DNA of 33,228 nt from Promethearchaeota archaeon (lineage in GTDB: Archaea; Asgardarchaeota; Lokiarchaeia; Sigyniarchaeales; SOKP01): the NCBI GenBank assembly GCA_016839915.1, contig JAEOTH010000089.1:1-33228 (forward strand), written 5' to 3'. The notes beneath the pieces are model-generated. The model saw only the letters and a program-made list of their open reading frames with translations. It was not told where the DNA came from and made no database searches. This document shows positions 1-32,379 of the stretch, one piece after another. The position numbers were made by a program, and so were the translations under genes. Numbering within the stretch: the first letter of the stretch is position 1; the number at the start of each line of letters is the position of its first letter.

Positions 1-3000
1 CTAATAATTTAAAGAGGTAAGCGATCTCCAGGATAAGGATAATAATAATGATAGGAATCACCGTAAAAAAGAAAGCAATAAAATAGGTACTATAAAGCCA
101 TACTAAATAGGTTGAAGTGAAGGTCATAATCGAGATCCAAGAGATAACTTTAATGTAATCAGCGTATTTTCCTACAAATTTTAATAAATAGCTATCTATC
201 ATCATTAATACGTGGATAACAAAACTTAAGATTAATAAGACCAATTGCAATTCAGGCCTTAGTAATATTAGAATTTGGAGTAAAAAGACACATATAGTAA
301 TATAGAAACCTGTACCTATTAGTCTGTGAATAGTTAATTGAATTTTACTTAGAGAATCTTTTCTGTTTGGATAAAATTCCTTTAGGGAAGTAAATAGTGA
401 ATAATTTGTGTAGAATTGCATTATCATAAAAACAAAAATTCCTAGACCAAGAAAAAACGGATATTGAGCTATATAATTGTATAAAATTAGAAATGTCATT
501 AATGATACAGTGAAAAAACTAATAGCATGAACCAATCTAGCATATCCTATTTTTATTTTTTTGATTTGATAAATGTCTATTAGAGTTAAAAAGAATAATA
601 CTGATAGAGATACCATGATGCTTTCATATACCCCTATAACTCCACTTAATAAGCCATATATCATAATACTTATTTCACAATACAGTATCAATATCAATAA
701 TGAATGTATTTTTATCAGAAAATTTGGATATTTTTGTTCGGGTAATATAATATTGAAATAATAAACGGGTATGAACGATAGAGATACTTCTATAAATATT
801 ATTAAATTAATTGAGATAAAATTTAAAAGTCCAAACAGGCTGAAGATGTAAAGTAAATTCATTGCTAATAGTCCTTGAAATATAACGAAAAGGATGAATT
901 CGATTCTATTTTTTATATTTTTTTCAACTTTAACGAAAAGGTAACTCAAGATATAAAGTATTAGCAATGAGTTTTGGAATAACAATGAATAGTAAGCAAA
1001 TCCTCTTAAATCTGCAAAGACCAATATCAATCCTTCAGAGATTAATGACCCTATATAAAAAGAACTCCAAACAAATAAATTATAAACAAGGATTACACGA
1101 AGTTTAGAAATTGTTTGTTTTGATATAACCAAGAAAGATAAGAAATGTAGAGTGATAAGATTTAAAAATGAGATTGTTAAAATTAATAGAAAAATATTTG
1201 GGTAAAATAAATAGAGAAACAAAGACGCTGTATTACAAAAAGCAAACCAGGACCATAGAATGAACTTATTACGGGTTGAATTAAATAAGAAGTAAAAGAA
1301 ACTCCTATCCACCACTGCAACTTCAATAAATACTCCTCCACTAACGATTAATAAAACCACATAAATTGAAATTATATAATTAACACTAATAAAAATCATA
1401 TAAAGAAGAACATTGATACTTAAAGCTACAGGAGTTAAAAGATATAAAATTCTGCTAATTTTACTGAAATAACGTAATAAATCCTTAATCTTGATGTCTA
1501 ACTCTGATTTTATTACATATTTCATACAAAGTAAAAACAAAATTGGCCAAATTATTAGGAAATCACATATCTGATAAATTATTAAAATATGAGAAAAGAG
1601 TAAATACTGCAATAAATTTGGCAAAATAATTGCTAAAAACAAGGAAACACAAATTGAATTTAATAGAAAGCATGTAAGATTGAGCCATTTTACTTGATTT
1701 GTATCTTGATAAATCTTCAATATGCTATTTTTTATTTCTTTGGTTCCTTCTTTTACAGAATTTTTAAATAAGTTAATTATAATCTGAAAAGTAATAAGAT
1801 ATAACATTGCCCATGTTAAAAGCCAGAAAGGTCGAATAATTTGAAATGTTAACAGAAATTCTAAAATGGGGGTTGTAATAGGAATTGGTATACAAAACCA
1901 TAGAATATATCTATATTCAGTAAATATAAAATACAAGAATATAATAAACACTGTAGAAAATGTTGAAATTAAAATACCAGTAGGTGCTTGGAATAGAATA
2001 GAAGTGAGAGAAGTAATTGATAAGGATGTTCCTACTGCCATGAATAAATATGGAATTATTTTATTAATATGTAACTTCATTTTATAACGATTGAAGATAA
2101 AAAATGAGCATCCAAAAACAGTTAACGCCAATGAAAAGGCAAAAATTACAAAACCAGGAAATAAACTAAAAGTGTTAAAGGTTAACCATGAAAAGTTAAA
2201 GATTAAGATCCAAGAAAGGCATAAGTTTATTATTCTTTTAGGTAATTCTAAATATTTAGAGGAAAAGAGAGTAAATCCAAATATAATTAAACTAATATTT
2301 ACGGCAAATATTGGATGTTGTATTATAGAGTAAAGAATGAAAAAGATCGTTAGAAAAATACCTAATAAAGTTATGAAATATGCACTTATTAACACAACTC
2401 CAACAGATCTGATATTAGGGAAAAATGAATAAACGATTAGAAATAACCCTATAACTAAGATAACAATTGAAATAGTAATTTGTAACGAGAGTCCAATTGA
2501 TAATAAATAGAAAAGTAAAAATGATGCATTAACAAATGTTAATGGAAAAATCCAAAATATTGAAAGAATTTTCCAAAATTTAAAAATCGCAAATAATGGC
2601 ATCAATAGCGTTACTGAAAACAAAACAAAAAATAAATTCCTTAAAAGAATATCTGTCAAAAATAAATTCTGACTAAACCAATAAAGTAAGAATAGGCTTT
2701 CTCCCCATATAGTAAATACAATTAGAGGAAGGTGTTTCTTGATTTTAGTATATACCACTGGTAGGAAAAATAATGAACAAATAATTAGAGTTAAAAAGAA
2801 AGAGCCACCAAACCTAAGAGTATAACCTAAGAGTTCAATACTAAAAAGCTCAGTTGTAAAAATATCCATTCCTGTTAGACTTTCATATATAATAAACCAG
2901 TTTACAATGGGCAGTATATTCCAAACATACCACCCTGATTTCCATATAGCCCAGGATATCTTCCATTGATAAATACCAATAGAAAGATAAAATAGGATAA

Positions 3001-6000
3001 CACCAACATTAATAGATACTATTAAAGGGATTAATGAAAATAAGGGCATAGATAAAGCAGCGATTATGAGGAAATATAAAAAGGTTGGAAAAGAAAATAT
3101 AATTGATATTAGAATTATATAAAAGGATTTCTTCCTAAACCGTGCTGGAGCATCATTATACAATAGAACAAATCCAAATCCTGTAAATGTGAGTGTTAAA
3201 GTGAATGTCAATATAGGATTGTAGAGTTGAAAAATTGGGTTGCTAAAAAGCCAAGCATATGAAATAAAACTAACAAGGTCAAAAATAAATAAAATAACAC
3301 AAGGATTAATGAACCACTTGTATCTTTCATCTTGTTTACGATAAAAGGATATTCCTATAAATAATAATAATATGAAAAGTGATATTGTTATGTTATAAAT
3401 AGAGAAAATATTGGTAAATAGACTGAGAGAGGTAAATGACAAGATTGAGATGAGAGAATATAAAGAGTATTTTTCAAGATTATTATTCTTTTTAATATTT
3501 AGGAGAATTGAAAAGAAAAAAACCACAATCAAAGATAATAGATAAATGACAGTGAAAAATCCTATTAAAGCAATATCGAATCCTGTCATCACTCCATATC
3601 CAATTAGAATAACTATAATCTCAACGAAAGTAAAATAACTTAATAGAAAGTAGGATAAAAATCGGAATATTGGAAATATACTCCTTTGAGAAAGAATAAG
3701 TAAATATGAAATTAATATGAGGAAAACTGATAAAATTGAGGGAAAATAAAGAAGACTTATGAATAAGATGAAAGATAAGATGTAATATCTAAATAAAATT
3801 AAAACAGAACGCTCTTCAACTATTTTGTTAATCCTTAAAGCAAAATAATATAAAATTAAAATAAAATTTACAATAACAGTAAATATATAAAATGTAGAAT
3901 TTTGATAAAAAACAGGGATTTGATTTGTTATATTTATAAGAATTTCACAATATAGACTTAATATTGATATTATAAATATCATCAGTGTAATTCTTTTCAT
4001 TATAAATTGGTTTTTAGATGAAATATATTTCAAATTCTTTAAAATATATAGACTAATTGGAGTAAAAAATGTAAACATTAAAGAAAATAAAGCTATTTTA
4101 TTTATAATAAAGAAAGGATATGCAAAATAGTCAATTAGAGAAAATAGCATTGTACATAATATTATTTTAATAAATAACCATGCTGTTAACTCAATGATTG
4201 TCTTTAATTGTATTAATTTAAATTTCCTATAATTATCGCAAATAACTAAGAATAAAAGAAAAACAGCAGAAAAGAACCCTAATAATGTTGAAATTTTTAT
4301 TAATAGAGGTAGAGTGTTAAGAAACGCAAAAAGATTAAACGAAAGACTCAAAAAAGTAAAGATAGATGCTATTGATAGGATTATTGCATAAATGATAATG
4401 TCTTGATAACTACTTAACTTCGATAATTTAGTAGAATAGTTAGATGCCAGTATTAAAGTATAAGTACTTAAAATGAAAAATATAAAAGAGCAACAACTTA
4501 TTACTAAGAATGTAAGTGGTGTTAACTCTATTCTAACGATAAATAAAGAAGCAATATAATAAGATAGAAACAATGTAAATGAAAACCAAGTAATTAAGCC
4601 AGTTAATTTAAAAAACTTGATATAATATTCTTTTAATTTAATTTTTACACTTATAATCTCAGAGATTTTTAGAAAGCAGAATGATAAAATAATTGTTGCT
4701 GTAATTATAAGACTTAGATTTGCCTCTAATCCAATTCTAATTAATTCTAAACCAATAACTACTGGTAAAGATGTAATTAAGCAGGATAAAGCAATAAAGT
4801 TATATATTGTTAATTTTTTGACCCCAGCTAGGTTAAAATATTCTCTTTTATAAGAATAATAAAATAAGAAAAACCATGAGAAGAGCAGTGCAATTAAAGG
4901 TAAGAAAAAACTATAAAAAGTTCCAAGTAAATATAAAAAGGGGTAAAAGAAAACTGTTGTGAAAGAAATGATAAGTAATGTAATAATATGAAGCCGTTTC
5001 AACCCTACTATCAAAGCTTCTGTTAATTTGAATTTTTTTGATATGCTTGTGAGAATTAACGAGAAAACAAAGAAAATATACAGGGAGGAATTTAAAATAT
5101 TCAATATGAAGAGATTTATATCAAAAACAAAGCCCAAAGAAAGTAAATTTAAACCAATTATTAATGGAATTGAAGTAAATAAACTTGTTAAAATTACCAT
5201 ATTTGAAAGGATTGCTCTTTTTACTGATCCTAAATTGAAAATCTCTTTTTTGTAAGAATAAAGGATCGGGATAAATAAAAAGCTGAAAGTGAAAATTAAT
5301 GGTAATATTACATTATACGTGGTATCAATTAATAAGTAAAAGGAATAATAGAAAATAGTTGTAGCGCTAATACAAATTGCTATTAATACCTGTAATTTTA
5401 GATGAAAATCTACTCTTTTCTCGCCACTTTTGAATATTTTTAATATATAATAATAAATATAGGATATTATCAACAAGATATATAAAGTAAAATTAATTAC
5501 AGTCATTATTAAGAAAATTATATCGAAATAAATACCCAAATAGAATAATTGCAATCCTATAGTACTAGGAATTAGCGAAATCGTCACGGAAAATAAAATA
5601 CTATTTATTTTTATAGCTTTGGAAGTAAGTTTAGGGTATAACCTTTTCATTCTTAAATATAAGAGAGGGAGAAATAGAATTATGCTTGAAACCATAAGTG
5701 GAATTGTGAAAACGTAAAAGGTTTCAAATGTCAGCATTAAAAAAAAGTAAAATGCTATAAAAATGCTATATAATAGAACAAAAACATTTATTTTAATATA
5801 GAGGTCTTCAGAAAATATCCCTTTTTTCGAAAATAGGTTAATGATTCCACAAACTATCGCTAAAGACAAAAATATTGAATAAATTATATTGTCAAACAAG
5901 GAAAGTGCTTGAAAACTTGTATAAAATAATGTAAAAAATAGATAAAGAAGCTCTACTGTGATAAAATAAGAATTAATTTTAATATATTTTTTAAATTTTG

Positions 6001-7891
6001 ATTCTTTCACACGTTCTATTTTAAGTCCAAATTTTAAAACAAAATAATAAAGAACAGATGCAATAAGGAAGTCAAATGCTAAAATAAGAAAGTAGGTTGT
6101 GAGTAGAGAAATTATCAATAGAGATATAAATAAATCACTCAATAATATCCATAGCGAAAAATAACTATGTTTTAAGAAATATTCCATTGAAAACACATGT
6201 AAACTATAATTTAAATATAGGAAAACCAAGAAAACAATAGGAAATAAGATAGAAGAAATACATACTCCCTGTAAAAATGGAATAAATTCAATTAAGAAGT
6301 AGACTCTAAAATTTATGAAAATAAAAATAGCTAGCTCAATTAAAAAACTATTTACTAATACAACCCTTCTGAATAATTTGGGGCTCTTTGTTTGAAAATA
6401 CCTTACTCCCAATATATATTGTGAAATTAAAAAGGTTCCCAAAATAAATATTGAGTGGAGAAGAATATTTGAAATGAGGAGTAAAAGAGGATTCGAAGTA
6501 AAAGTCGTATACCCTAAAATAGCTATAGGGAAGAAAGAATATAATATTAATCCAATACTGGTAATTGCAAGTAAATTTTGATAGATGAGAATATTTTCTT
6601 TAATGAAATATTCAAATTTAACAAAGATTTGTAAAACAAAATATAGAGAAAGACAAAATACTAGGAAATTCAATAAAATAGTACCCAAGAACACAGGAAT
6701 TATTCCAAACGAGATGGAAATTAAAATCAAAATTGAATTCAACAAAATTACATATTTATTGTATTTTTTAGAACAAAGGCCTGATTTCTGTTCATAATGA
6801 AGGAGGATATAAATGAGTGGAAGAATAATTAAGAGTAATAATGGAATTTCAATTAAAAATGAGAATAAAGTGATTAATAAAACTAGAATACAGGATAAAT
6901 AAGAATTGTACTTTTGATACTTAGAATCTTGGATTGGAGAACTTTCGCCAGATATTTCTATTTTTTCAGGCTTATCAAATAATTCAAGTTTTGAAGTATA
7001 GTGAAAACTGACATAAAACCTAGATTTAAAATAAAACAAGAGAAATATAATGGTTAAGAAAATATTGCTTAGTATTTCAAGACTCCAAGAAACGCCCGAA
7101 AGAATGAGAGTGATAATCACAATTGAAGGGATCAGGATTAAAACCAAGAAAATTAAGCTAACTATTGAAATCACAAATTTCTGTTTGAACCTTGTTAACT
7201 CATTCAAAACAGGGCCTTTCTTTTCTATTGACTCTCGAATTCTATTGACTTGACTCTTTGTACCTATTAATGTAATAATATATATAAGTAAGTTAGATAT
7301 AAGCGCATAGAGCCAAGAAAAGTTAGTGGGGGCTGTAAAGGTTAAGAAAACAATGTGAATTATGTAATTAACAATTATCAAGAAGTTGTAAGGTTGCTTA
7401 ATCATTAATTCCAAACTTTTAGCAGGTTTGAATTCTTCTTCACTTAGGTTAAAAAAGTCTATTGGTTGGTAATAATAATAGTAATAAACTATATTGTAGA
7501 GAATCGCATAGCTAATCAGGGGAAGATATATAAATGATTCAAAACCCCAAATGAATATAAAAATAGGAGTGGTAACAAATGATCCAATAGAAATTAGAAA
7601 TACTATATGAATTCTAGCAGTAAGATTATTCTTTTTATTAAGAAAAAAGGGATTATGTCTATATTTGTCGAATGCTTTATAAAAGAAAAGTAAAGCAAAT
7701 ATAAAGGTTACCAATGAGAGAGATAATGCAATGTATTCCCCAACTCTGGCAAAATTAAATATATAAAAAAAAACAATAGCTACTACTAAAGGAGCAATAA
7801 TTAAAAAAAATGAAAACCACCAAAATTTCTGAAGTAATTCTGTGGCTTTTCTAATTCTTTCTTGAGAATTATTACTATTTTTTGAGTTCAT
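1..7891 (-). CDS. Giant polytopic membrane protein (>=2630 residues, C-terminus beyond the window)
   Basis: I read every in-phase codon (plus-strand triplets starting at positions 2, 5, 8 and so on) and found no TTA, CTA or TCA from 7891 down to 2, so the frame is open for 2630 codons and continues past the left edge. The ATG at 7889-7891 is the chosen start; the first in-frame upstream stop is at 7940-7942, and a TATA-like TTTATAAA lies about 50 bases upstream. The product begins with a short polar stretch (MNSKNSNNSQERIRKA) and is then almost continuous hydrophobic helices rich in I, L, F, Y and S, separated by short K/R/N loops. My rough estimate is 70-80 membrane segments. The longest polar loop is near residues 303-330. 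Three repeats spaced 134 residues apart carry the pattern [IL]P..IGL.L...G, with the IGL glycine at 779, 913 and 1047. I see no enzymatic motif, signal peptide or soluble domain. I do not recognise the family. The frame is certain; transport, scaffold or envelope roles would all be guesses. Confidence 0.9.
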   Translation of the reverse strand, partial: MNSKNSNNSQERIRKATELLQKFWWFSFFLIIAPLVVAIVFFYIFNFARVGEYIALSLSLVTFIFALLFFYKAFDKYRHNPFFLNKKNNLTARIHIVFLISIGSFVTTPIFIFIWGFESFIYLPLISYAILYNIVYYYYYYQPIDFFNLSEEEFKPAKSLELMIKQPYNFLIIVNYIIHIVFLTFTAPTNFSWLYALISNLLIYIITLIGTKSQVNRIRESIEKKGPVLNELTRFKQKFVISIVSLIFLVLILIPSIVIITLILSGVSWSLEILSNIFLTIIFLLFYFKSRFYVSFHYTSKLELFDKPEKIEISGESSPIQDSKYQKYNSYLSCILVLLITLFSFLIEIPLLLLIILPLIYILLHYEQKSGLCSKKYNKYVILLNSILILISISFGIIPVFLGTILLNFLVFCLSLYFVLQIFVKFEYFIKENILIYQNLLAITSIGLILYSFFPIAILGYTTFTSNPLLLLISNILLHSIFILGTFLISQYILGVRYFQTKSPKLFRRVVLVNSFLIELAIFIFINFRVYFLIEFIPFLQGVCISSILFPIVFLVFLYLNYSLHVFSMEYFLKHSYFSLWILLSDLFISLLIISLLTTYFLILAFDFLIASVLYYFVLKFGLKIERVKESKFKKYIKINSYFITVELLYLFFTLFYTSFQALSLFDNIIYSIFLSLAIVCGIINLFSKKGIFSEDLYIKINVFVLLYSIFIAFYFFLMLTFETFYVFTIPLMVSSIILFLPLLYLRMKRLYPKLTSKAIKINSILFSVTISLIPSTIGLQLFYLGIYFDIIFLIMTVINFTLYILLIISYIYYYILKIFKSGEKRVDFHLKLQVLIAICISATTIFYYSFYLLIDTTYNVILPLIFTFSFLFIPILYSYKKEIFNLGSVKRAILSNMVILTSLFTSIPLIIGLNLLSLGFVFDINLFILNILNSSLYIFFVFSLILTSISKKFKLTEALIVGLKRLHIITLLIISFTTVFFYPFLYLLGTFYSFFLPLIALLFSWFFLFYYSYKREYFNLAGVKKLTIYNFIALSCLITSLPVVIGLELIRIGLEANLSLIITATIILSFCFLKISEIISVKIKLKEYYIKFFKLTGLITWFSFTLFLSYYIASLFIVRIELTPLTFLVISCCSFIFFILSTYTLILASNYSTKLSKLSSYQDIIIYAIILSIASIFTFLSLSFNLFAFLNTLPLLIKISTLLGFFSAVFLLFLVICDNYRKFKLIQLKTIIELTAWLFIKIILCTMLFSLIDYFAYPFFIINKIALFSLMFTFFTPISLYILKNLKYISSKNQFIMKRITLMIFIISILSLYCEILINITNQIPVFYQNSTFYIFTVIVNFILILYYFALRINKIVEERSVLILFRYYILSFILFISLLYFPSILSVFLILISYLLILSQRSIFPIFRFLSYFLLSYFTFVEIIVILIGYGVMTGFDIALIGFFTVIYLLSLIVVFFFSILLNIKKNNNLEKYSLYSLISILSFTSLSLFTNIFSIYNITISLFILLLFIGISFYRKQDERYKWFINPCVILFIFDLVSFISYAWLFSNPIFQLYNPILTFTLTLTFTGFGFVLLYNDAPARFRKKSFYIILISIIFSFPTFLYFLIIAALSMPLFSLIPLIVSINVGVILFYLSIGIYQWKISWAIWKSGWYVWNILPIVNWFIIYESLTGMDIFTTELFSIELLGYTLRFGGSFFLTLIICSLFFLPVVYTKIKKHLPLIVFTIWGESLFLLYWFSQNLFLTDILLRNLFFVLFSVTLLMPLFAIFKFWKILSIFWIFPLTFVNASFLLFYLLSIGLSLQITISIVILVIGLFLIVYSFFPNIRSVGVVLISAYFITLLGIFLTIFFILYSIIQHPIFAVNISLIIFGFTLFSSKYLELPKRIINLCLSWILIFNFSWLTFNTFSLFPGFVIFAFSLALTVFGCSFFIFNRYKMKLHINKIIPYLFMAVGTSLSITSLTSILFQAPTGILISTFSTVFIIFLYFIFTEYRYILWFCIPIPITTPILEFLLTFQIIRPFWLLTWAMLYLITFQIIINLFKNSVKEGTKEIKNSILKIYQDTNQVKWLNLTCFLLNSICVSLFLAIILPNLLQYLLFSHILIIYQICDFLIIWPILFLLCMKYVIKSELDIKIKDLLRYFSKISRILYLLTPVALSINVLLYMIFISVNYIISIYVVLLIVSGGVFIEVAVVDRSFFYFLFNSTRNKFILWSWFAFCNTASLFLYLFYPNIFLLILTISFLNLITLHFLSFLVISKQTISKLRVILVYNLFVWSSFYIGSLISEGLILVFADLRGFAYYSLLFQNSLLILYILSYLFVKVEKNIKNRIEFILFVIFQGLLAMNLLYIFSLFGLLNFISINLIIFIEVSLSFIPVYYFNIILPEQKYPNFLIKIHSLLILILYCEISIMIYGLLSGVIGVYESIMVSLSVLFFLTLIDIYQIKKIKIGYARLVHAISFFTVSLMTFLILYNYIAQYPFFLGLGIFVFMIMQFYTNYSLFTSLKEFYPNRKDSLSKIQLTIHRLIGTGFYITICVFLLQILILLRPELQLVLLILSFVIHVLMMIDSYLLKFVGKYADYIKVISWISIMTFTSTYLVWLYSTYFIAFFFTVIPIIIIILILEIAYLFKLL

Positions 7892-7938
7892 CGCCGAACA
7901 CAATTTTAATTGGATCTTGAGAATAATGAAAATATTTG

Positions 7939-7946
7939 TTTATAAA
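7939..7946 (-). promoter_or_regulatory. TATA-like box of the giant membrane protein gene
   Basis: TTTATAAA, 48 bases upstream of the ATG at 7891. Typical archaeal spacing would put the transcript start near 7915, leaving a leader of about 25 bases. The leader has only a weak GTG-type Shine-Dalgarno site. Assigned by spacing and composition only. Confidence 0.4.
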
Positions 7947-8004
7947 TATATCAGAACTATATTTACTAATGTGTTAAGAACATTTAAAAGGTTTTATCCA
8001 ATTA

Positions 8005-8056
8005 GGGGGGTATATTAAAAATTTGGGTGGTATATTAAAAATTTGGGTGGTATATT
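8005..8056. repeat. 20-bp tandem repeat, about 2.6 copies, in the divergent intergenic region
   Basis: The unit GGGTGGTATATTAAAAATTT occurs at 8005-8024 (with GGGGGG for GGGTGG), 8025-8044 and, partially, 8045-8056. It lies between the giant membrane protein gene (leftward) and the GH4 gene (rightward). Each unit joins a G-rich block to a TATA-like block and covers about two helical turns, so a protein-binding array or repeated promoter element is plausible. The rest of 7892-8246 shows only AT-rich sequence and the promoters listed separately. Confidence 0.8.
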
Positions 8057-8201: not shown

Positions 8202-8209
8202 TTTAAATA
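8202..8209 (+). promoter_or_regulatory. TATA-like box of the GH4 gene
   Basis: TTTAAATA, 38 bases upstream of the TTG start at 8247, in the position expected for an archaeal promoter with a short leader. Confidence 0.4.
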
Positions 8210-8246: not shown

Positions 8247-9551
8247 TTGACAAGAAAAGAGAAGATCGTCCTAATTGGTGCTGGATCTTTGCAATTTGGT
8301 GTAGGTTCAGTAGGGAGTATACTTAATAGCGATACATTACAAGGTTCTAACATAATCTTGCACGATATAAATGCTTCAAATTTAGAATTGGTATCTCAAG
8401 CTTGTAGAGACGCAATAGAAGTAAAAAATTTAGATTTTGAATTAGACGCTACTACAGATAGAAATCAAGCTTTAAGGAATGCTACTTTTATTATAAATTC
8501 AATAGAAATTGGACCCCGCTTTAAATGGTTTGAATTGGATTACCAAATACCTAGAAAATTTGGTAATAAGCAAGTTTTTGGTGAAAATGGTGGTCCAGGG
8601 GGTCTTTTTCATTCACTAAGAGTTATTCCACCTATCCTTGAAATATGTGAAGATGTTAATAAAATATGCCCAAACGCTTTCTTTATTAATTTTTCAAATC
8701 CTATGAGTAGAATTTGTTTAGCAATAAAACGTAAATTCCCCTCATTAAAATTTGTTGGATTATGTCATGAATTTCAGGATTTTGAACATCATTTTTCAAA
8801 AATTCTTGAAACTCCTCTTAAAAATCTTAAATTAAAGGCAGGTGGATTAAATCATTTTGGAGTACTATTAGAAGTGAAATATATTGATAAAAATATTGAT
8901 GCTTATCCAGATCTTAGAAAAAAAGCCCCACAATATCTTAGTAATTTAAAAGGATATACAGGCGACGTCGATTTGATTAAATACATCCTTGAGAAGTTTG
9001 GTTACCTCCCCTATACACAAGATTCCCATTATGGAGAATATATTTCATGGGCATGGGAAAAAGCAAATATTGAAGGTGTAAGATATTTTTATGATGGATA
9101 TAAAAAAGCGATATTATCGATGGGAAAAATACTACGAAAAACGATTCAAAGGGGTAAAGGTTCAAGACTTGTAAAACCAGATCATGAAAGAGCAATTCCT
9201 ATTATTGAAGGAATAATAACAGATTCGAATCATGAAGAAGTTTCTGTTAATTTACCAAATGATGATGTTATTACAAATTTACCGCGTGATTTAGTTGTAG
9301 AGTGTCCAGCTATTGTTAATAAAAATGGAATGCAAGCGATTAAACTTGGAGAATACCCAAAAGGATTAGCTGCTCTTTTACGAAATCAAGCCTCAGTTCA
9401 AGATTTGGTGGTAGAAGCAATAATACAAAAATCAAAAGAAATTGCTTTTCAAGCTCTTCTTTTAGATCCAACAATTGACGATACTTCAAAGGCAGAAGAG
9501 ATTTTTGATGAAATGCTTAAGCTTAATGAAGAACATATAATTTTAGAGTAA
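8247..9551 (+). CDS. Glycoside hydrolase family 4 enzyme (NAD- and metal-dependent)
   Basis: A 434-residue protein of normal GH4 length. These enzymes cleave alpha- or beta-glycosides by an oxidation-elimination mechanism that uses NAD+ and a divalent metal, in the cytoplasm. The N-terminus has the Rossmann dinucleotide loop (IGAGS, residues 10-14). Further family signatures are GENGGPGG, NPM at about 151-153, GLCHEF with the metal-ligand cysteine at 173, and GGLNHFG with the metal-ligand histidine at 203. The start is TTG at 8247, six bases after GGGAG. Nearest relatives are alpha-galactosidase/alpha-glucosidase-type enzymes (MelA/AglA) and related uronidases; the sugar cannot be read from sequence. 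No phosphotransferase or sugar-transport gene is adjacent, so it probably acts on an unphosphorylated substrate made or imported elsewhere (inference). Confidence 0.9.
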   Translation: MTRKEKIVLIGAGSLQFGVGSVGSILNSDTLQGSNIILHDINASNLELVSQACRDAIEVKNLDFELDATTDRNQALRNATFIINSIEIGPRFKWFELDYQIPRKFGNKQVFGENGGPGGLFHSLRVIPPILEICEDVNKICPNAFFINFSNPMSRICLAIKRKFPSLKFVGLCHEFQDFEHHFSKILETPLKNLKLKAGGLNHFGVLLEVKYIDKNIDAYPDLRKKAPQYLSNLKGYTGDVDLIKYILEKFGYLPYTQDSHYGEYISWAWEKANIEGVRYFYDGYKKAILSMGKILRKTIQRGKGSRLVKPDHERAIPIIEGIITDSNHEEVSVNLPNDDVITNLPRDLVVECPAIVNKNGMQAIKLGEYPKGLAALLRNQASVQDLVVEAIIQKSKEIAFQALLLDPTIDDTSKAEEIFDEMLKLNEEHIILE

Positions 9552-18959: not shown

Positions 18960-19964
18960 TTAAACTAAATTATTTATGATAATCTCTGAGATATCTCCGG
19001 CGTATTCTCCTGTTCTTCTAATACTTTCAATAATATACCCTATTGCAATTGATAGTTCTGCACTAATTGTCGTATCAAAAGTAATCTTTTCAGTATTCGC
19101 TATTAAATCTTTTATGGATTCTATATTTTCGTTAGCGAGCATAATACTTTTTTGAAGCCAGGCATCAAGACTTTTATCTAATAAATCTAATGATATTTTA
19201 CTTGCTTTTAAGATGTCTTTAATTAAATCTTTGTCGATCTTCTTGTAATCAATTAATATAAAATTCTTAGCTATTCTCACAGCATGGTCTCCAATACGTT
19301 CCAAGAATTTACTCATTGAATGATAATGGCTTGCTTGTTCTAAAGTTATCCCCATTTTCTGGCATAAAATAATATCTCTCAATACGACATGAGACTGACG
19401 ACCAATTAACCAGAGTAATCTGTCAACATCATTGTCTCTTTTTATAACTTCTTTTGCTAATTCTGTATCACCGGTTTCAAAGGCTCTAATTGCATCCTCA
19501 TGCATATCATGTACAAGAATATACATCCTTTTTATAGTTTTTTCAAACGGCATTTCAGTAGGATTGAGTAAATCCTTAATAGTAATGATATTGCTAGATT
19601 CCTCCACGATCTCAGGACCTATAGCAATTTGAGTAAAATTGGTAATACAATCTCTAATGAAAGGCTCAAATTTTCTGCTGGATTTTATTATAATTTTAGA
19701 AAAACCCATTATATATACTCCAATTAAGATACGAAATAAATAGTTATCATCTTTATAATCATCAACAATAATCTCCTTTATTTTAATCATTTTTTCGGTG
19801 TCAATCTGAGGTGTTATTAATAAATTACCATCTGGTTGCGAAAGAATTCCCAATGTATCGTGATTTTCAACACCATGTTTGTCTATCCATACTTTAGGTA
19901 AAGAAATGATATAACTTGAACCCCCTGTCTTTTGAACTTTCCTTGTTTCTATATGAAGTGGCAT
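18960..19964 (-). CDS. phoU: PhoU-type phosphate regulator with N-terminal AbrB-like DNA-binding domain
   Basis: 334 residues, the usual length for this archaeal type. Residues 1-50 (RKVQKTGGSSYIISLPKVW and what follows) form a swapped-hairpin SpoVT/AbrB domain. The rest is two PhoU helical bundles with the typical helix starts DTELAKEVIKRDNDVDRL and SMSKFLERIGDHAVRIAKN; the acidic D/E positions bind metal in PhoU proteins. It is expected to sense or control phosphate uptake, here probably acting on the PiT transporter three genes upstream. The ATG at 19962-19964 has only a weak TGAT-type ribosome site. Upstream lies a tandem TCTATATAT repeat that could be its own operator (inference). Confidence 0.88.
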   Translation of the reverse strand: MPLHIETRKVQKTGGSSYIISLPKVWIDKHGVENHDTLGILSQPDGNLLITPQIDTEKMIKIKEIIVDDYKDDNYLFRILIGVYIMGFSKIIIKSSRKFEPFIRDCITNFTQIAIGPEIVEESSNIITIKDLLNPTEMPFEKTIKRMYILVHDMHEDAIRAFETGDTELAKEVIKRDNDVDRLLWLIGRQSHVVLRDIILCQKMGITLEQASHYHSMSKFLERIGDHAVRIAKNFILIDYKKIDKDLIKDILKASKISLDLLDKSLDAWLQKSIMLANENIESIKDLIANTEKITFDTTISAELSIAIGYIIESIRRTGEYAGDISEIIINNLV

Positions 19965-20023
19965 GATTTAATCATTTTTTTTCTGATTATATAAAACAAA
20001 TAAACAATATATTTAAACTCTAA

Positions 20024-20041
20024 TCTATATATTCTATATAT
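20024..20041. repeat. Tandem 9-bp repeat TCTATATAT x2 upstream of phoU
   Basis: TCTATATAT occurs at 20024-20032 and 20033-20041, 60-77 bases upstream of the phoU ATG. Similar 9-bp units lie upstream of the PhoU-like/PiT genes. The surrounding 19965-20241 also contains a doubtful 37-codon frame (20102-20215, minus) and nothing else I can support. Confidence 0.5.
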
Positions 20042-20241
20042 TATCTTATTCTTCCACTAATTTTTGTATCAATCTTCAATATTAAATGTATAGATCAGAT
20101 TTTAATAGAGACTATTAGAGATTTTTAGTTTTTTTTGTTTTTTTGCATTTTGTTTTATAAGAATAATCGATTCTTCTCTCGCTTTTAATAAAGATCTTTC
20201 CTTAATTCCAGCCATTTCTTTTGAAGGTAAGATTTTTTCTT

Positions 20242-20730
20242 TTAATATTTTTTATATAGTAAATACTCCTCCTTTCTGCTGATAAATGGATCTACTTTTT
20301 CTTCATGAATGAAATCTTCGATAGTGGTATTTTTTCCGTTGCAATTACCTTCCGTAAGATCAAATCGATAGTCCTGATACACTAAAAAGCAATGTACTAT
20401 TGGGACATAAGGGAGGTTATATTTTTTTAAAATTTCATTTGTCCCCGTCGAGATTTCCTCATTAAGTTTATAAATACCTACATGCTTGTAAAGTGGTACA
20501 TTAAGTTCTTTAGCGAGACCTGCGATTACGGCATGTTTAGATGTACAAGAACCTTTATTCTCTTTAAAAAAGATTAATTTATCATCATAATTCGTATTAT
20601 AACCATATTCAATATTATGTACATAATCGCAAGCCTCCTTGAAGGATATTATTCCTAGCTCTATAAATTTTTTTGACATTTCTCCTGCAGATTTAATCTC
20701 AGCGTCTGGGATTTTGTTATATGAATCCAT
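20242..20730 (-). CDS. Transglutaminase-like (papain-fold) protein
   Basis: 162 residues. The catalytic triad order of the transglutaminase-like superfamily is visible: cysteine in GSCTSKHAVIAGLAKEL (about 62), histidine in IVHCFLVYQDYRF (about 113) and aspartate in FDLTEG (about 123). The protein is compact, without signal peptide or membrane segment, so it is probably cytoplasmic; members act as proteases or amide-modifying enzymes. The start ATG at 20728-20730 has no clear ribosome site. It sits within the phosphate block, between the DUF47 and phoU genes, which is unusual. An upstream direct repeat TGACTATATCAAA x2 may be its regulatory site. The fold is likely; the substrate is unknown. 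Confidence 0.75.
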   Translation of the reverse strand: MDSYNKIPDAEIKSAGEMSKKFIELGIISFKEACDYVHNIEYGYNTNYDDKLIFFKENKGSCTSKHAVIAGLAKELNVPLYKHVGIYKLNEEISTGTNEILKKYNLPYVPIVHCFLVYQDYRFDLTEGNCNGKNTTIEDFIHEEKVDPFISRKEEYLLYKKY

Positions 20731-20799
20731 ATGAATATTCTTAGAAAATTCAATTATAAATTTAATCTACATCTTTTAAATCCCAATCGAATTATCAAA

Positions 20800-20826
20800 T
20801 GACTATATCAAATTGACTATATCAAA
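20800..20826. repeat. Direct repeat TGACTATATCAAA x2 upstream of the transglutaminase-like gene
   Basis: Identical 13-base units at 20800-20812 and 20814-20826 (14-base period), 70-96 bases upstream of the ATG at 20730. Each contains CTATAT, the core also repeated upstream of phoU and of the PiT operon. The rest of 20731-20972 shows nothing else. Confidence 0.6.
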
Positions 20827-20972
20827 ATAAAACCGTATAATTTAGATTTAGTAAATCATGTGCTTTACCATTGACGAAATTTTATCCTTTCTTTGCTAAA
20901 ATTAATATTGCTTGATAAAGATCTCCAAATTGTTATCATCTTAGATAACGTTAACGTTTTAACCTTTTGAAT

Positions 20973-21656
20973 TTAGATACCCTTCTCGCTAGTCAAAAGA
21001 ACTAAAATATAATCTGCAACACCCTCAATTGAATCGGAAATTGCCTCAAGAATATCGAAAATATTGCCTACGGTAAAGATAGTGAAAAAATTAACGTCAT
21101 AGTGAGTTTCTTGAAGACTTTTTCTCAATTGAATATTCATTAGATCAACTTTATGTTCAAGGTCATTTATTTGTGTAGCTATCTCTTTAACATTTTTCCT
21201 ATCTTCAACAAGATCCATAACAATTTTATCTAAGAATTGACCACAATCTACAGTAGTTTTCATAATCTGGCTAATCAAATCTATGGTTTTTTCACTACTT
21301 TGTTCCCAAAATTTAACTGGTATTGTAGCGATTCGCCGAGCAACTCCAGTACAACAGTTAGCTACATCATCCATTCTCTTAACTAAATGAGAAAGATTCT
21401 GTCTAATACTAGGATCTAATTCTCCTCTAGAAATATCTTGCTGTATTTTTCTTCTTAAATTATCTGCTTCTCTTTCTAAAACATCAACATTATGAAAAAT
21501 GCCATATGATTTATCAAGATTTTTTTCTTTTAGAAGCATTTGCAATCCAGTGTCTAACTCCCTTACACATTCTTGTACTTTTTGGGCGTGCTCTATAGTC
21601 TGTTCTAAAGCATTTAAAGCAGTTTCTCTTTTCAAATATTCAATTAAAGATCCTAT
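20973..21656 (-). CDS. DUF47 (PhoU-like) phosphate transport accessory protein
   Basis: All-helical, 220-227 residues, typical DUF47 length. Family features include the early ALEQTIEHAQKVQECV helix, DVLEREADNLRRKIQQDI and LEHKVDLMNIQLRKSL, with E-x3-D pairs as in PhoU metal sites, and VGNIFDILEAISDSIEGVAD near the end. DUF47 proteins sit beside PiT transporters and are thought to modulate them. The TTG at 21633-21635 would give a product lacking the usual extra N-terminal turn. Seven codons upstream, an in-frame ATA (21654-21656) is five bases after GGTGA and gives (M)GSLIEYLKRE; I chose it, though it needs a non-standard start. It follows the PiT gene by 76 bases on the same strand. Confidence 0.85.
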   Translation of the reverse strand: MGSLIEYLKRETALNALEQTIEHAQKVQECVRELDTGLQMLLKEKNLDKSYGIFHNVDVLEREADNLRRKIQQDISRGELDPSIRQNLSHLVKRMDDVANCCTGVARRIATIPVKFWEQSSEKTIDLISQIMKTTVDCGQFLDKIVMDLVEDRKNVKEIATQINDLEHKVDLMNIQLRKSLQETHYDVNFFTIFTVGNIFDILEAISDSIEGVADYILVLLTSEKGI

Positions 21657-21732
21657 TCAAATCACCTTTAGTTTTCAATCATTATAACCTCTTTATAATT
21701 ATATATATTTTACATTTATTTTTAATAATATA

Positions 21733-22770
21733 TCATGATAATCCAAATGAACTTAACCCAAAATAAATAAAACCTGCTAAAACCCCAGCTATTGGAAAGG
21801 TAAGCACCCAATAGAGTCCCATCTTACCTAATCCTTTATAATCCACTTCTTTTTTTTGGGCAAGGCTCATACCAATTATACAGAAAACAATCACATGGCT
21901 ATGTGAAATTGGAAGAGCGAATAGTGTGGCGATCATTAAAATAAGTGCAGAACTTATCTGTATAATAAACCCTTCACTAGGGCGTGTATCGATCATATGA
22001 GATGCTAGATTTCTGATAACATATCGGGCAGCAAAGTAAATACCTAGAAATGTAAATATTCCACAGAAAACTGCAAAAATAAGGTATTGACTACTGGATA
22101 TAGAATTGTTTTGCCTAAGACCTAAAAGGATACCTAAAGCTTCTCCTGAGTTAGCTCCGACCCAAAGTTCTGCAAATATAACAGCAATTAATAAGAGCCA
22201 TTTAAAAGTTTTCTCAGATTTTTCAATCTGATTTAAACCCTTTAGCCGAGATAATATAAATTTAGCACTTATTTTAAAAAGAACGTATGTTATTAATAAA
22301 CCTGATAATGGAGATATAAACCAACTTAACACTACATCTCTTAGTTTTTCATAATTAAATGCAGTATTAAGATCTACCCCTCCTTGAAAGATAGCATAAA
22401 CTATAACAACACCTACAATGCTCCCAATTAATGAGTGAGTACTGCTCAAAGGAATACCAGCAAAACTGCCTATCACAAGCCAGATAATACTACTTATCAA
22501 TACTGCTAAAAGCATATAATTAGTATATTGTTCTTCTAAGCCTTCACCTAAAAGGCTTTTACCTACTGTTTCTGGGACAAACCCTCCGCTAAAAAGTATC
22601 ATACCAGAACCTATTGCGATTCCACCTAATATTAGTGCAATTTTAAATTTTAAAACACCAGCGCCAACTATAGAAGCAAGAGTTTCATCATTCGCGCCAA
22701 TACTAAAGGCTAAACCAATAGCCATAGCTACTAAGACTATAACTAAGATTATAGTTAATTCTTCAGCCAT
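21733..22770 (-). CDS. pit: PiT-family inorganic phosphate transporter
   Basis: 345 residues with about 10 membrane segments. PiT signatures occur in both halves: FSIGANDETLASIVG near residue 22 and GIPLSSTHSLIGSIVG near 105, then GANSGEALG near 208 and the inverted-repeat counterpart LPISHSHVIVFCIIGMSLAQ near 285. These proteins import phosphate (or metal-phosphate) with cations. The ATG at 22768-22770 is six bases after AGGA. It starts 24 bases after the diverged PhoU-like gene and is followed by the DUF47 gene, so transporter and two helical accessories form one unit. Confidence 0.9.
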   Translation of the reverse strand: MAEELTIILVIVLVAMAIGLAFSIGANDETLASIVGAGVLKFKIALILGGIAIGSGMILFSGGFVPETVGKSLLGEGLEEQYTNYMLLAVLISSIIWLVIGSFAGIPLSSTHSLIGSIVGVVIVYAIFQGGVDLNTAFNYEKLRDVVLSWFISPLSGLLITYVLFKISAKFILSRLKGLNQIEKSEKTFKWLLLIAVIFAELWVGANSGEALGILLGLRQNNSISSSQYLIFAVFCGIFTFLGIYFAARYVIRNLASHMIDTRPSEGFIIQISSALILMIATLFALPISHSHVIVFCIIGMSLAQKKEVDYKGLGKMGLYWVLTFPIAGVLAGFIYFGLSSFGLS

Positions 22771-22793
22771 ATTTATTCCTGACTTTATATTTT

Positions 22794-23456
22794 TTAATCA
22801 AAGATAAGGTATTTGGTCGCAAGAAACTGAATATATTCAGAGAAATTTTTAATATGATCAGCCAACATCATTATATCTTCAATTAATTCTTTCAAATATA
22901 TGAAAGTTCGAGATAAGTAGTCCATATCATAATTATATAAACGATTTAATAATTGCCATTCCTCGTTTCTCATTTTTCTTCGTTCGTCTTTTATTTCTTC
23001 ACATATGTCGTGAGCTCTGCTAAGATCAGAACCAATTGATTTCACTGCATTCGATAAATTGTTAGAAATTATCTTTAACATTTTAAGGATACTTAAAATG
23101 TGAGATTTAAATTGCTCATCCGGGAAAACTGCTTTATAAAGAAGCATTTTATTTGCTAAAAATTCTCCAATATTTTTTATATCATTTATTTTAGTGAATA
23201 ACTTCAATCGATCAGCTTTAGAGAACATTAATTTTGATTTGAATATTTTAGATTCAAACTTTTTTTTAATCTGAACCTCAGTATTAGTATCTATAACATA
23301 ATTCATATTAGTATTAAATTTATCAAAATCCTCTTGAACAAGAAATTCAATCCCTTCTATTAACTTTAGATTTTGTTCATTAATGTTATCCATAAATAAC
23401 TGAGTTAATTCATCAATACTTAGCTTTTTTAATTCCGTATCCTCAACCTTTTTCAT
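22794..23456 (-). CDS. Diverged PhoU/DUF47-like helical protein
   Basis: 220 residues, all-alpha, highly charged, with no membrane segment. It has the same length as the DUF47 protein on the other side of the transporter gene and the same periodic helix pattern (IKDERRKMRNEEWQLLNRL, IEDIMMLADHIKNFSEYI), ending in a helix that resembles DUF47 C-termini, but the acidic metal-site pattern is weak. I infer a distant paralogue acting on the same transporter. It is the first gene before pit, 24 bases apart. The ATG at 23454-23456 is preceded by GGAATTTT. A structure prediction is needed to confirm the family. Confidence 0.6.
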   Translation of the reverse strand: MKKVEDTELKKLSIDELTQLFMDNINEQNLKLIEGIEFLVQEDFDKFNTNMNYVIDTNTEVQIKKKFESKIFKSKLMFSKADRLKLFTKINDIKNIGEFLANKMLLYKAVFPDEQFKSHILSILKMLKIISNNLSNAVKSIGSDLSRAHDICEEIKDERRKMRNEEWQLLNRLYNYDMDYLSRTFIYLKELIEDIMMLADHIKNFSEYIQFLATKYLIFD

Positions 23457-27459: not shown

Positions 27460-30366
27460 TTGCCAAGTCCAAAAAAGAAAAAGTCAGATGATAAAGAACA
27501 GAAATCAATTTTCTCTTTTGTTCACGAAAAAAAAGAGAAAGAAGAGAAGCTTGTAGAAACTAAAGATTATACAAAAACTGAAAAAATTAAAGAAGAAAAG
27601 ACAGTCAAAAAGGCGGCCATTAAAGAGGAGAAAATTAAAAAAGAGATACCTGTAAAATTTTCCTTTACCGGGAAGGAGGAACCTTTTGGTTTAAAGTCTA
27701 GGAATATTAAATTGACCAAGTTGTTAAGAGAAAGTGTTTCATCTAAATATATTCGATATCTTATTGAAAATGGCGAAATCATTGAAGATATGGAACGAGG
27801 TTTTCTACTTGATGTTGATTATGATGGTGGTCAAAATAAAGCATATTGCAAATTTTATGATTTAGATACTGACGAGATAAAGATTTGGATCGATACGACT
27901 AATCATGAGCCTTATTGTCTAAGTAAAGAACCTATTTCAGAGTTAGAAAAACTTTATTATACTGAGTCTCCGGAACATCAGAAAAAACTGACTGATTATG
28001 AAGGATTTAAACGTTTTGAAGAAATTAGACGCTTTGATTTATTAAATGATCAAGAGATTGACATAACCAAGATTTATGGTAGAACTCCAATGAATATTGG
28101 GGGTTCTGGATTAAATATACGTAATATATTAGGTAATAATGAGATAAAAGCTTGGGAAGCAGATATTCGGTACCACTTGAATTACATATTTGATAGACAA
28201 TTAATCCCGGGACTTATTTACAAAGTTGAAAATGGTAAGCTCATAAAATTAAATTTCGAGAAAACAGATGAAAATTCGAAAAAAATGGCTAATGAGCTTC
28301 GAGAGTTATTCAAGAATGAATCTCCAGAAATACAAGAATTTACTGAGGAATTTTTAGATATTTTCATTACTCCAATCCCTGATATTAAACGAATGGCTAT
28401 GGATATTGAGGTAATGGTTGGTGAAAGAGATTTTAAAATCCCTGATCCACGTTTAGCAAAACAAGAAGTTATTAGTATCTCATTTGTAGCCACAGATGGC
28501 TTAAAATTAGTCTATATACTTGAGCGAGAAGGATATACATTTGAGAAATTACATAAGGATTTTCCTTCTGATGCAAAAATTGTTTTCTTCAAATCTGAAA
28601 AAGAGTTACTAACAGAAACTTTTCGACTTATCTGGGAATATCCCGTAGTTATTACTTTTAATGGTGATAATTTTGATTTGAATTATTTATTCCATAGAGC
28701 AGAAAAATTAAAAATTGATAAAGATTTAAATCCTATTCATGTAAAACGAGGTTTTGGAATTTTATCTAAAGCTGAATGTGATTTAAGAAAAGGAATACAT
28801 ATAGATATATTTAATTTATTTTTCAATAGAAGTATTTCCGGTTATGCTTTTGGTGGTGCTTATGAGAGTGCATCTCTTAATGCTATTAGTGCTGCTTTAT
28901 TAGGAGAAGAAAAACTTCAACATGATGAGATAATTCATGAAATGGAATACGATGTTCTTTCTTGGTATAATCTTAAAGATTCTATCTTAACATTAGATTT
29001 AACGAGATTTAATAATTCCTTGGTTTGGAATCTAATAATTCTTTTATGTAGAATAACTAAAATGCCTATACATGATATGATTCGTAGACAAATCTCAACT
29101 TGGATTCAAAATATCTTTTATTTTGAACATCGTAGAAAAAACGCACTTATCCCTCACCGATCAGAAATAAAGGAAAAAAAACCAGGGGGGATCCTCTCCT
29201 CTAAATTTGATGATGGGAAATTTTTAGGTGCTTATGTAGTACAACCAGTTCCAGGAATTCATTTTGATGTTGTAGTTATGGATTTTGCCAGTCTATATCC
29301 TTCTATTATAAAAGAATATAATTTATCATATGAGACAGTTCTATGTCCTCATAAGGATGATGAAGATAATCTTGTTAAAGGAACACCATACCATATATGC
29401 ACTCAGAAAATGGGAATATTTGCATATGTTGTAGGCTTTTTCAGAGATATTAGGGTTAAATACTTTAAACCAAAATCAAGTGATAAAAATTTGACTGAAA
29501 AACAACGAAGTTACAATTTAACAATTCAACAAGCGTTAAAAGTGTTTATTAATGGTTCTTATGGTGTTTTTGGCTCTCAGAATTTTCCACTGTTTTGTCT
29601 ACCAGTAGCAGAGAGCACTACGGGAATAGGGCAATATTCAATTAAACAAACTATAAATAAAGCAGAAGAATTAGGAGTAGAAGTTTTGTACGGTGATACT
29701 GATTCTGTCTTTCTTAAAAACCCTACTAAAAACCAAATGAAAGAAATATCTGATTGGAGCAAAAAAGAACTTGATCTTGATCTTGAAGAGGAAAAAACAT
29801 ATCAGTTTTTAGCTCTCTCTGAGAGAAAAAAGAATTATGTCGGCATTTATAAAGATACTAAATATACAGATATAAAAGGCTTAGTGGCTAAAAAGAAAAA
29901 TACTCCTGATTTCATCAAGAAAGTTTTTAGTGAAATGATTGATCTCCTCAAAAATATTACTAACAATGATGAATTTTTAAAGGCTAAAGATAAAATTATT
30001 GAAATTGTGAGGAGTAATCTTAAAAAAATAGGAAAACCAGATGTTTTCACTTTAGAAGATTACGCAATAAATATTGGATTGCAAAAGGATCTTAAGAACT
30101 ACACAAAAGTAGTTCCACAACATGTTAGAGCTGCATTAGAATTACAAAAAGTAACTGGAAAAGAATTCCAAAAAGGCGAAACAATAAGTTTTATCAAAAG
30201 TAAAGGAAATGTTGGCGCTAAAGCGCTTGAATTAGCTAAACTTCAAGATATTGATCCAAAAAAATATAAGGAACTTCTGATATCTGCCTTGGAACAAGTC
30301 TTAGATGCCCTAGGTATTACATATGAAGAGATAAAGGGAATTAAAAAGATGGATGCTTTTTTTTAA
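27460..30366 (+). CDS. polB: Family-B DNA polymerase with proofreading exonuclease
   Basis: 968 residues. The 3'-5' exonuclease motifs are intact: AMDIEV near 313-318, FNGDNFD near 401-407 and YNLKDS near 510. Polymerase motifs are intact: DFASLYPSII at about 608 (motif A), KVFINGSYGVFG (motif B) and YGDTDSVF near 743 (motif C), followed by KKNYVG. It is thus an active replicative or repair polymerase. The first 80 residues are a lysine/glutamate-rich extension not needed for the fold; within it QKSIFSFV (14-21) resembles a PCNA-binding motif, and the protein ends in IKKMDAFF, a second PCNA-box-like sequence. The start is TTG with GGTTT five bases upstream. A T-rich terminator region follows directly. 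The uracil-sensing N-terminal domain is probably present but not confirmed by eye. Confidence 0.95.
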   Translation: MPSPKKKKSDDKEQKSIFSFVHEKKEKEEKLVETKDYTKTEKIKEEKTVKKAAIKEEKIKKEIPVKFSFTGKEEPFGLKSRNIKLTKLLRESVSSKYIRYLIENGEIIEDMERGFLLDVDYDGGQNKAYCKFYDLDTDEIKIWIDTTNHEPYCLSKEPISELEKLYYTESPEHQKKLTDYEGFKRFEEIRRFDLLNDQEIDITKIYGRTPMNIGGSGLNIRNILGNNEIKAWEADIRYHLNYIFDRQLIPGLIYKVENGKLIKLNFEKTDENSKKMANELRELFKNESPEIQEFTEEFLDIFITPIPDIKRMAMDIEVMVGERDFKIPDPRLAKQEVISISFVATDGLKLVYILEREGYTFEKLHKDFPSDAKIVFFKSEKELLTETFRLIWEYPVVITFNGDNFDLNYLFHRAEKLKIDKDLNPIHVKRGFGILSKAECDLRKGIHIDIFNLFFNRSISGYAFGGAYESASLNAISAALLGEEKLQHDEIIHEMEYDVLSWYNLKDSILTLDLTRFNNSLVWNLIILLCRITKMPIHDMIRRQISTWIQNIFYFEHRRKNALIPHRSEIKEKKPGGILSSKFDDGKFLGAYVVQPVPGIHFDVVVMDFASLYPSIIKEYNLSYETVLCPHKDDEDNLVKGTPYHICTQKMGIFAYVVGFFRDIRVKYFKPKSSDKNLTEKQRSYNLTIQQALKVFINGSYGVFGSQNFPLFCLPVAESTTGIGQYSIKQTINKAEELGVEVLYGDTDSVFLKNPTKNQMKEISDWSKKELDLDLEEEKTYQFLALSERKKNYVGIYKDTKYTDIKGLVAKKKNTPDFIKKVFSEMIDLLKNITNNDEFLKAKDKIIEIVRSNLKKIGKPDVFTLEDYAINIGLQKDLKNYTKVVPQHVRAALELQKVTGKEFQKGETISFIKSKGNVGAKALELAKLQDIDPKKYKELLISALEQVLDALGITYEEIKGIKKMDAFF

Positions 30367-31293: not shown

Positions 31294-32379
31294 TCATATT
31301 TGCATTATAATAATTACTAATGTCATTATATAAGCGCACAAAATTGGATTTAAAATATTATCATCAATTTTAAGGTTTAGAATATCAATAATTAAAAAAG
31401 TTAAAGCCCCAAAAAAACCAGTAATGATAATTTGAGAAATGATCAATATTTGTTCAAATACCCATAATACTAATATACTGATTCCAAACGACACTATAAA
31501 TCCAGATATATATCCAATTAATGTTTTATTCGAAGATTTTGGAATATGAATCTTACCAAATCTTAATCCACAAATTGATGCTGCACCATCACCTAATGTC
31601 GCAATTAACGCAGCAGCTGTAAATACCCCAAAGGAAAGAAAAAGAGTAGGTATTAAGGATAAAACTAAAGCAACAGGTCTAGTAAATTCATAAATCTCAT
31701 TTTTCTTTAAAGTCTTCCCTAATGTATTGGAAATACAAGTAGGAAGTAAGTGATAAATACTACTTTTGTTAAAAATGTGTGATAAACGAATATAATCTAA
31801 AGCAGCAAATATGATTATTCCAGTATAACCAACCGTTAATATCAAAAATATACCATATTCTGTCCCTGAAATTCCCCAAAATTGATCAGCATCCCATAAT
31901 TCATCCCAAATATGCACAGCAAAAACCCACAAAAGAATAATGATTACAGCAGGCAATAAATGGAATGCTTTTCTATGAAAATCAGTTTTCAAAGCTATTT
32001 TTCGATCATTGAGATTCTTTACATCCATTAAAGTAAAATGATCTGTAAATTTTTCTATAGTTCTCTCATCTCTTAGATGTGGTTTTTTCTTTAGGATAAA
32101 TTGATATTGATAATATAAAATAAAAAAAACTAACAATGGGGCGTATATACATATAATTTGAAGAGCTAATCCTTCAAACCATCTTACTTGATTCGTGTCT
32201 CTTATAAAAAATAATGGATATACAATACCAGCTGCAATCCATAGTATAAATATCAAAAATGAATTTGTAAAATTATGATTCGGGTACTTTTTTTTCATTT
32301 TTAAAGCATAATATAGGTGAGCAAATCCATTACATATATAAAAAATTGTTACTGGTAAGGTGAGCCAGTTATAAACCAT
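31294..32379 (-). CDS. Dolichol-kinase/CTP-transferase-family membrane protein
   Basis: 361 residues, about nine membrane segments. The N-terminal third is a separate group of membrane helices ending in a polar loop (DERTIEKFTDHFTLMDVKNL). Then comes FHRKAFHLLPA, the RK..H motif of dolichol kinase, phytol kinase and CTP-dependent diacylglycerol kinase (SEC59/VTE5/DGK1), and the nucleotide-binding loop GDGAASICGLRFGKIHIP with SNKTLIGY, the family's G-D..A...G..FG......KT..G pattern. It should phosphorylate or cytidylylate a lipid alcohol in the membrane. Polyprenol, geranylgeraniol and diacylglycerol-like (archaeol-type) substrates are all possible. The ATG at 32377-32379 has no strong ribosome site. 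Confidence 0.8.
   Translation of the reverse strand: MVYNWLTLPVTIFYICNGFAHLYYALKMKKKYPNHNFTNSFLIFILWIAAGIVYPLFFIRDTNQVRWFEGLALQIICIYAPLLVFFILYYQYQFILKKKPHLRDERTIEKFTDHFTLMDVKNLNDRKIALKTDFHRKAFHLLPAVIIILLWVFAVHIWDELWDADQFWGISGTEYGIFLILTVGYTGIIIFAALDYIRLSHIFNKSSIYHLLPTCISNTLGKTLKKNEIYEFTRPVALVLSLIPTLFLSFGVFTAAALIATLGDGAASICGLRFGKIHIPKSSNKTLIGYISGFIVSFGISILVLWVFEQILIISQIIITGFFGALTFLIIDILNLKIDDNILNPILCAYIMTLVIIIMQI

Follow-up and report, generated by a model that had tools for sequence, protein, structure and literature searches.

The window analyzed here, 33,228 nucleotides long, is contig C37 of a draft genome in 221 contigs (Table 1). As the initial annotation had stated, its minus strand is open for 2630 codons without a stop, from an ATG at position 7891 down to position 2, and the 3′ end of the ORF lies beyond the window edge. 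Leftward extension, which that annotation had proposed, located the stop: contig C191 starts with the reverse complement of window positions 1–127 (an overlap of exactly 127 bases) and adds 357 codons before the stop, which brings the whole product to 2987 residues. When window positions 1–3000 were searched against the DNA of the same genome, the only matches were C37 itself, C191 and one match of 33 bases. The junction between C37 and C191 is crossed by orthologues on single unbroken contigs, and the alignment to the orthologue in locus L039 covers 2981 of the 2987 residues, spanning the junction. The genes that follow the giant gene on C191 are amino-acid ABC transporter genes, and the same order is found in many relatives of the same genus.

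The neighbors of the giant gene are GH4, aminotransferase, MFS and amino-acid ABC transporter genes. An operon partner was considered and rejected because no neighbor is constant across genera. The GH4 glycosidase gene of the window is divergent from the giant gene; in most other family loci, GH4 relatives are encoded in the same direction as the giant gene. Farther along the window lie a phosphate cluster and a gene for a family B DNA polymerase of 968 residues with an exonuclease domain. A hydrophobic protein of 361 residues is also encoded in the window and had no Pfam match at E ≤ 1e-5; by eye, it may resemble phytol or dolichol kinases. On C191 (L004, positions 7118–8458), a gene flanked on one side by the amino-acid ABC transporter genes and on the other by an acyl-CoA ligase-like gene encodes a 446-residue protein with the look of HEAT repeats by eye.

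Table 1. Coordinates of features in the window; residue and helix numbers are those of the giant protein
Feature	Position	Strand	Basis or remark
Overlap of 127 bases, identical to the start of C191	1..127	.	C191 carries the frame to its stop
Open frame, residues 1–2630 of 2987	2..7891	-	Residues 2631–2987 and stop on contig C191
C-terminal arm within the window, residues 1887–2630	2..2233	-	Counterpart region in relatives with unit duplications
Conserved hub, residues 1645–1880 (helices 51–58)	2252..2959	-	Alignment of 42 rows
Three tandem four-helix copies, residues ~697–1084 (helices 21–32), offset 134	4640..5803	-	Last two copies 41% identical
Predicted cytosolic linker, residues 289–327 (39 residues), ORF break point elsewhere	6911..7027	-	Predicted topology and split loci
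N-terminal module, residues 1–327 (helices 1–8 and linker)	6911..7891	-	Separate ORF in 10 loci
GH4 glycosidase	8247..9551	+	
Phosphate cluster	18960..23456	-	
AbrB/MazE-PhoU regulator	18960..19964	-	
PhoU_div/DUF47	20973..21635	-	
PHO4 phosphate transporter	21733..22770	-	
220-residue protein in the phosphate cluster	22794..23456	-	
Family B DNA polymerase	27460..30366	+	
Hydrophobic 361-residue protein	31294..32379	-	

Maintenance and distribution of the giant frame

From the base composition, about 7% of codons are expected to be stops, and the chance of 2630 stop-free codons is ~1e-83; the other five frames of the region contain 140 to 350 stops. Against the closest relative (L039, 73% identical over the full alignment), dN/dS was 0.205, far from the value of 1 that the initial annotation had named as a sign against a real gene. 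Comparison with nine relatives gave values from 0.19 to 0.35, with the more distant pairs near saturation at synonymous sites. The frame is conserved in related genomes and is maintained by selection. Some observations might suggest that the assembly is wrong or that the frame is open by chance in AT-rich DNA: the frame crosses a contig end, the draft genome has 6.89% contamination, and among the relatives an in-frame TGA interrupts the gene in L066 and a single in-frame TAA splits it in L065. However, 22 of the 40 loci fetched outside family f2 contain one closed, nearly full-length frame, and an intact homologue of 4297 codons is present in a single-contig genome of 4.36 Mb. Stop statistics, dN/dS and the closed frames in relatives refute an artifact of this kind, and we regard its probability as negligible.

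Among the 227 genomes of the phylum, 56 were matched by the window protein (E ≤ 1e-5) and 59 by a profile of the conserved core (E ≤ 0.001). All matching genomes fall within one order (families f1 to f4 in our numbering), and the named records among them include Candidatus Lokiarchaeia archaeon ABR06 and Candidatus Lokiarchaeota archaeon LW40_87. The core profile gave a single match in 57 of its 59 genomes and two matches in the others, G155, where both are pieces at contig ends, and G039, where the second is a short piece. The window protein matched 18 of the 19 genomes of its own genus. Genus g5, with five genomes, was matched neither by the window protein nor by the core profile, and likewise several other relatives gave no match; the gene appears to be absent or unrecognizable in these genomes, so that some lineages seem to do without the giant protein.

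Counted from the first ATG, the closed frames outside f2 encode 2535 to 3331 residues; in the rest of the 40 loci, the gene is split or interrupted, runs into a contig end or contains N. Four of the seven f2 loci, including the one in the single-contig genome, hold closed frames of 3516 to 4297 codons. A phage, plasmid or viral origin was also considered and rejected, as no relative was found in phages or plasmids by tblastn of the window protein, or in viral contigs by one degenerate-pattern scan.

Predicted topology and internal organization

The initial annotation described the product as almost only membrane helices, and the analyses agree. The GRAVY of the giant protein is 1.16, and plain hydropathy gave 83 non-overlapping peaks, compared with 0, 1 and 0 in three soluble neighbors and 10 in an MFS neighbor. 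AlphaFold models of residues 1–1110 (model A) and 1480–2630 (model B), for which 33 and 34 alignment rows were used from 37 and 38, were nearly all helix, with 33 and 37 helices, pLDDT of 80.0 and 75.7, and pTM of 0.51 and 0.54, respectively. In the first stretch (32 loops), the family mean of Lys plus Arg per loop was 0.33 on one side of the membrane and 3.44 on the opposite side; over the 36 loops of the second stretch, the corresponding means were 0.21 and 2.96. The values of the two sides did not overlap in either stretch. In the models, the positive-inside rule holds at each of the 68 loops and predicts that the N-terminus is inside.

A segment model trained on the AlphaFold helices called 93 helices in the whole chain and placed the C-terminal end outside. 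In a cross-test, it recovered 35 of 36 and 32 of 32 helices. The segment model is tuned to the giant protein and is no general predictor; in controls, four soluble proteins were each assigned 2 to 6 helices, and an MFS protein 8 of the 12 expected. On the basis of the AlphaFold helices, the cross-test and hydropathy, a polytopic membrane protein with a predicted ~93 helices and its N-terminus inside is strongly supported. The longest predicted loops are 39 residues on the inside, where there are two of them, and 27 residues on the outside, which fits the earlier claim that no soluble domain is present. By eye, one of the two long inner loops (residues 2801–2839) has the look of a charged amphipathic helix.

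Across the family, the estimated number of helices ranges from 81 to 127, and the f2 proteins account for estimates of 97 to 127 made with the segment model outside its training. Among 35 proteins outside f2, 32 had an odd count and 23 a count of the form 4n+1, although the proteins are related and their counts not independent. Three loci, L053 and L054 because of runs of N and L066 because of its interrupted frame, were left out of the pairwise-length alignment (figures for L039 and L051), of the 42-row alignment described below, together with L055, and of the helix counts, together with L055, L040 and L068 (contig-end cuts).

In ten loci, the part corresponding to residues 1 to 306–320 (helices 1–8) is an ORF of its own, just before or overlapping the long ORF, and in five of the ten the two ORFs overlap by 8 bases. 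The lowest-confidence residues of model A (310–318) lie within the linker at residues 289–327. The long frames of L060 and L061 are open from the junction onward, but their first ATG is 320 to 343 bases downstream. In L065 (3053–12224), the giant gene is split after residue 306 by the in-frame TAA, possibly a sequencing error; L064 belongs to the same genus and has the gene fused. The two-ORF form suggests that assembly from pieces is tolerated, as might be the case for a membrane platform that gathers surface-layer, respiratory or cytoskeletal partners and has no mechanical role. The predicted soluble parts, which are all short and inside, and the positive loops that recur along one face would also suit such a platform. 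However, no partner gene is conserved and the neighbors vary between genera, and we consider a platform of this kind improbable.

The 42-row alignment takes in f2 members at 19–21% identity. When charged residues, N, Q, H, W, P and G were examined for invariance, 14 positions were kept in all 42 rows, and 13 of them lie within residues 1650–1879 (W1650, W1657, P1661, N1664, G1696, P1711, W1729, W1738, P1765, W1773, W1780, P1825 and K/R1879). The hub is rich in Trp, Pro and Asn and is conserved through the family. If the very start of the modeled fragment is set aside, model B was least confident at residues 1643–1694, as would be expected if the hub folded only in an assembly with copies of itself or with a partner.

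The hub is flanked by two arms that vary in length and consist in part of units duplicated in tandem, and this organization is strongly supported. The duplications are mostly 120–135 residues or twice that length. In the window protein, the repeat at residues ~697–1084 gave a z of 11.7 in profile self-comparison versus ≤5.6 in the reversed control, and the hhalign probability was >99 for each of the three pairs among its copies. Helices 17–20, which gave 82.6 and 70.3 against the following copies (hhalign), are likely a fourth copy. The arms change length in blocks, as in L050 and L051: the two proteins are 91% identical over 2745 aligned residues, yet L051 is 379 residues longer, and its self-comparison revealed a 250-residue tandem copy at 83–97% identity and a 128-residue copy at 89%. 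Duplications were also found in L043 (135 residues at 75% and 179 residues at 69%), L064 (128 residues at 93%), L047 (250 residues at 65–76%) and L069 (121 residues at 43%).

When 25 family members were compared with themselves in fragments, tandem copies were found in both the N-terminal and the C-terminal arms; self-repeats were absent in three of the 25, and 20 block-shuffled controls gave one hit in total. Some weak matches had offsets that were not unit-sized (e.g. L059, L062, L063 and L100), and some duplications, such as the 179-residue copy in L043, are not multiples of four helices. The idea that the whole chain arose from one four-helix unit was not supported. A probability above 50 was reached by 11 of 253 in-register unit pairs, little better than the 7 of 300 and 8 of 300 shifted pairs, and by 0 of 300 reversed pairs (first 300 pairs of each of the three control lists).

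Comparison with known families and systems

No Pfam match above the curated cut-off was obtained with the window protein, with 34 and 33 family members or with three hub fragments, and NCBIfam gave no match with the window protein. Weak Pfam matches were to TadF (0.24), LisH_TPL (0.02), COX14 (0.045), DUF2730 (0.077), LapA_dom (0.015) and, in one member each, TgpA_N (0.0017) and DUF6844 (0.014). A possible likeness of the hub motif GW...P..N to DUF5684 was dismissed, since the three hub fragments gave no such match. Long polytopic proteins of unidentified family are often GT-C glycosyltransferases or other lipid-linked enzymes, and a GH4 gene adjoins the giant gene in many family loci. However, GT-C glycosyltransferases carry a conserved acidic residue in one of their outer loops, and of the six acidic positions at 85% conservation over the 42 rows none is in an outer loop. 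As the protein also has no large predicted outer domain and no matching Pfam family, we regard a membrane enzyme of the GT-C or another lipid-linked type as highly improbable.

One PDB sequence match was obtained, to ActF of quinol:cytochrome c oxidoreductase (8k9e_F, E 9.5e-4, 89 columns). It came from the profile of residues 1480–2630, lay outside the hub and was absent with profiles A1 and A3. Together with the invariant Trp, Pro and Asn residues within helices 51–58, this weak match could point to a giant transporter or channel in which the hub would move a lipid, polymer or ion and the arms would stabilize it or form a long conduit. Against this, no transporter family was matched in Pfam or NCBIfam, the ActF match is isolated and could come from common hydrophobic composition, and arms that vary by hundreds of residues would not obviously be needed. 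A transporter or channel seems to us a possible but rather unlikely reading.

Foldseek gave no match at E ≤ 0.001 (best E 0.063 and 0.024 for the two models, TM-scores 0.21 or below). The neighbors were mostly helical repeat or designed proteins, and a few membrane proteins ranked below them. The giant protein resembles alpha-solenoid and designed helical proteins in its repeated antiparallel helices, but these top neighbors are by name soluble or designed, and there is no fold match.

The nearest architectural analogue is Piezo. Both are very long chains that consist largely of membrane helices and have consecutive four-helix units, although in the giant protein the four-helix copies are seen in helices 21–32 and not over the whole chain. 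The most conserved part of the giant protein is mid-chain, whereas the Piezo pore is C-terminal. A large external cap and a long cytosolic beam as in Piezo are not predicted, since outer loops have at most 27 residues and inner loops at most 39. Piezo has 38 helices per chain (114 per trimer) and nine four-helix units, compared with the ~93 helices predicted here, and a review calls it the membrane protein with the most passes found so far (PMC9256749).

Kinship with Piezo was not supported by model, PDB-chain and fold searches and was rejected. No Piezo model matched the window protein at E ≤ 1, none matched the sets of 34 and 33 family members at E ≤ 0.1, and PF24871 matched none of three genomes at E ≤ 1. 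No solved Piezo chain in the PDB was found with profiles A1, A2 and A3 at E ≤ 10, and no protein named Piezo was among the best 50 of 62 and the best 50 of 139 Foldseek matches.

Giant Asgard proteins have been listed before. According to PMC8813620, its Extended Data Fig. 7b lists Asgard giants of >3000 residues, which may include members of the present family, and the aloposons described there, elements inserted at tRNA sites, carry Otus and Ephialtes as giant genes in tandem. The present family shares with Otus and Ephialtes that it comprises Asgard genes for proteins above 3000 residues; it differs in that the giant gene is single, its split form aside, and lies among metabolic genes. The aloposon layout of two tandem giant genes with a MinD/ParA-like gene upstream was not found at the family loci, and no second, unrelated giant gene adjoins. 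In the literature searched, whose coverage lacked many journals and preprints, we found no description of the giant family. With the listed giants of PMC8813620 as a caveat, the Pfam, NCBIfam, PDB sequence and Foldseek searches agree with the initial annotation that no described family matches. Neither its sequence nor its fold nor its number of passes fits a described family.

Possible function and significance

No enzyme or surface domain was found in the giant protein. Since it has no recognizable aqueous domain, no conserved acidic residue in its outer loops and no fixed partner gene, its work is probably done in the membrane itself. The number of units in the arms varies and the hub is held constant, which suggests that the length is tuned and the center is functional. 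Our favored, though tentative, reading is a length-tunable membrane solenoid or scaffold that senses or sets tension and curvature. The protein would form a helical solenoid embedded in the membrane, with the arms as long blades lying in the bilayer and the hub as the place where copies or partners meet. The whole would sense or set membrane tension and curvature, working like Piezo without being its kin. The low pTM values of 0.51 and 0.54, the absence of Piezo from the best Foldseek matches, the proteins without self-repeats, the duplications that are not multiples of four helices and the related genomes without a match count against this reading, and the conserved Trp/Pro/Asn hub would fit a transport site equally well. 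A bolder proposal, which we think unlikely, is that the family founds an archaeal class of membrane solenoids, an independent counterpart of Piezo in which a hub and two tunable blades feel or impose curvature.

Beyond what the initial annotation had seen, these analyses place the stop 357 codons farther on and reveal two arms that duplicate in units and a conserved central hub. The estimated number of passes per chain is more than twice the 38 of Piezo, and the known range is a single Asgard order. Whatever its function, the protein raises the questions of how such a chain is inserted, why the number of units varies between proteins that are 91% identical, and what the hub binds. If the mechanical reading is true, membrane sensing or shaping by many helices in a row would have been solved a second time and independently, in archaea that are central to ideas on the origin of eukaryotes.
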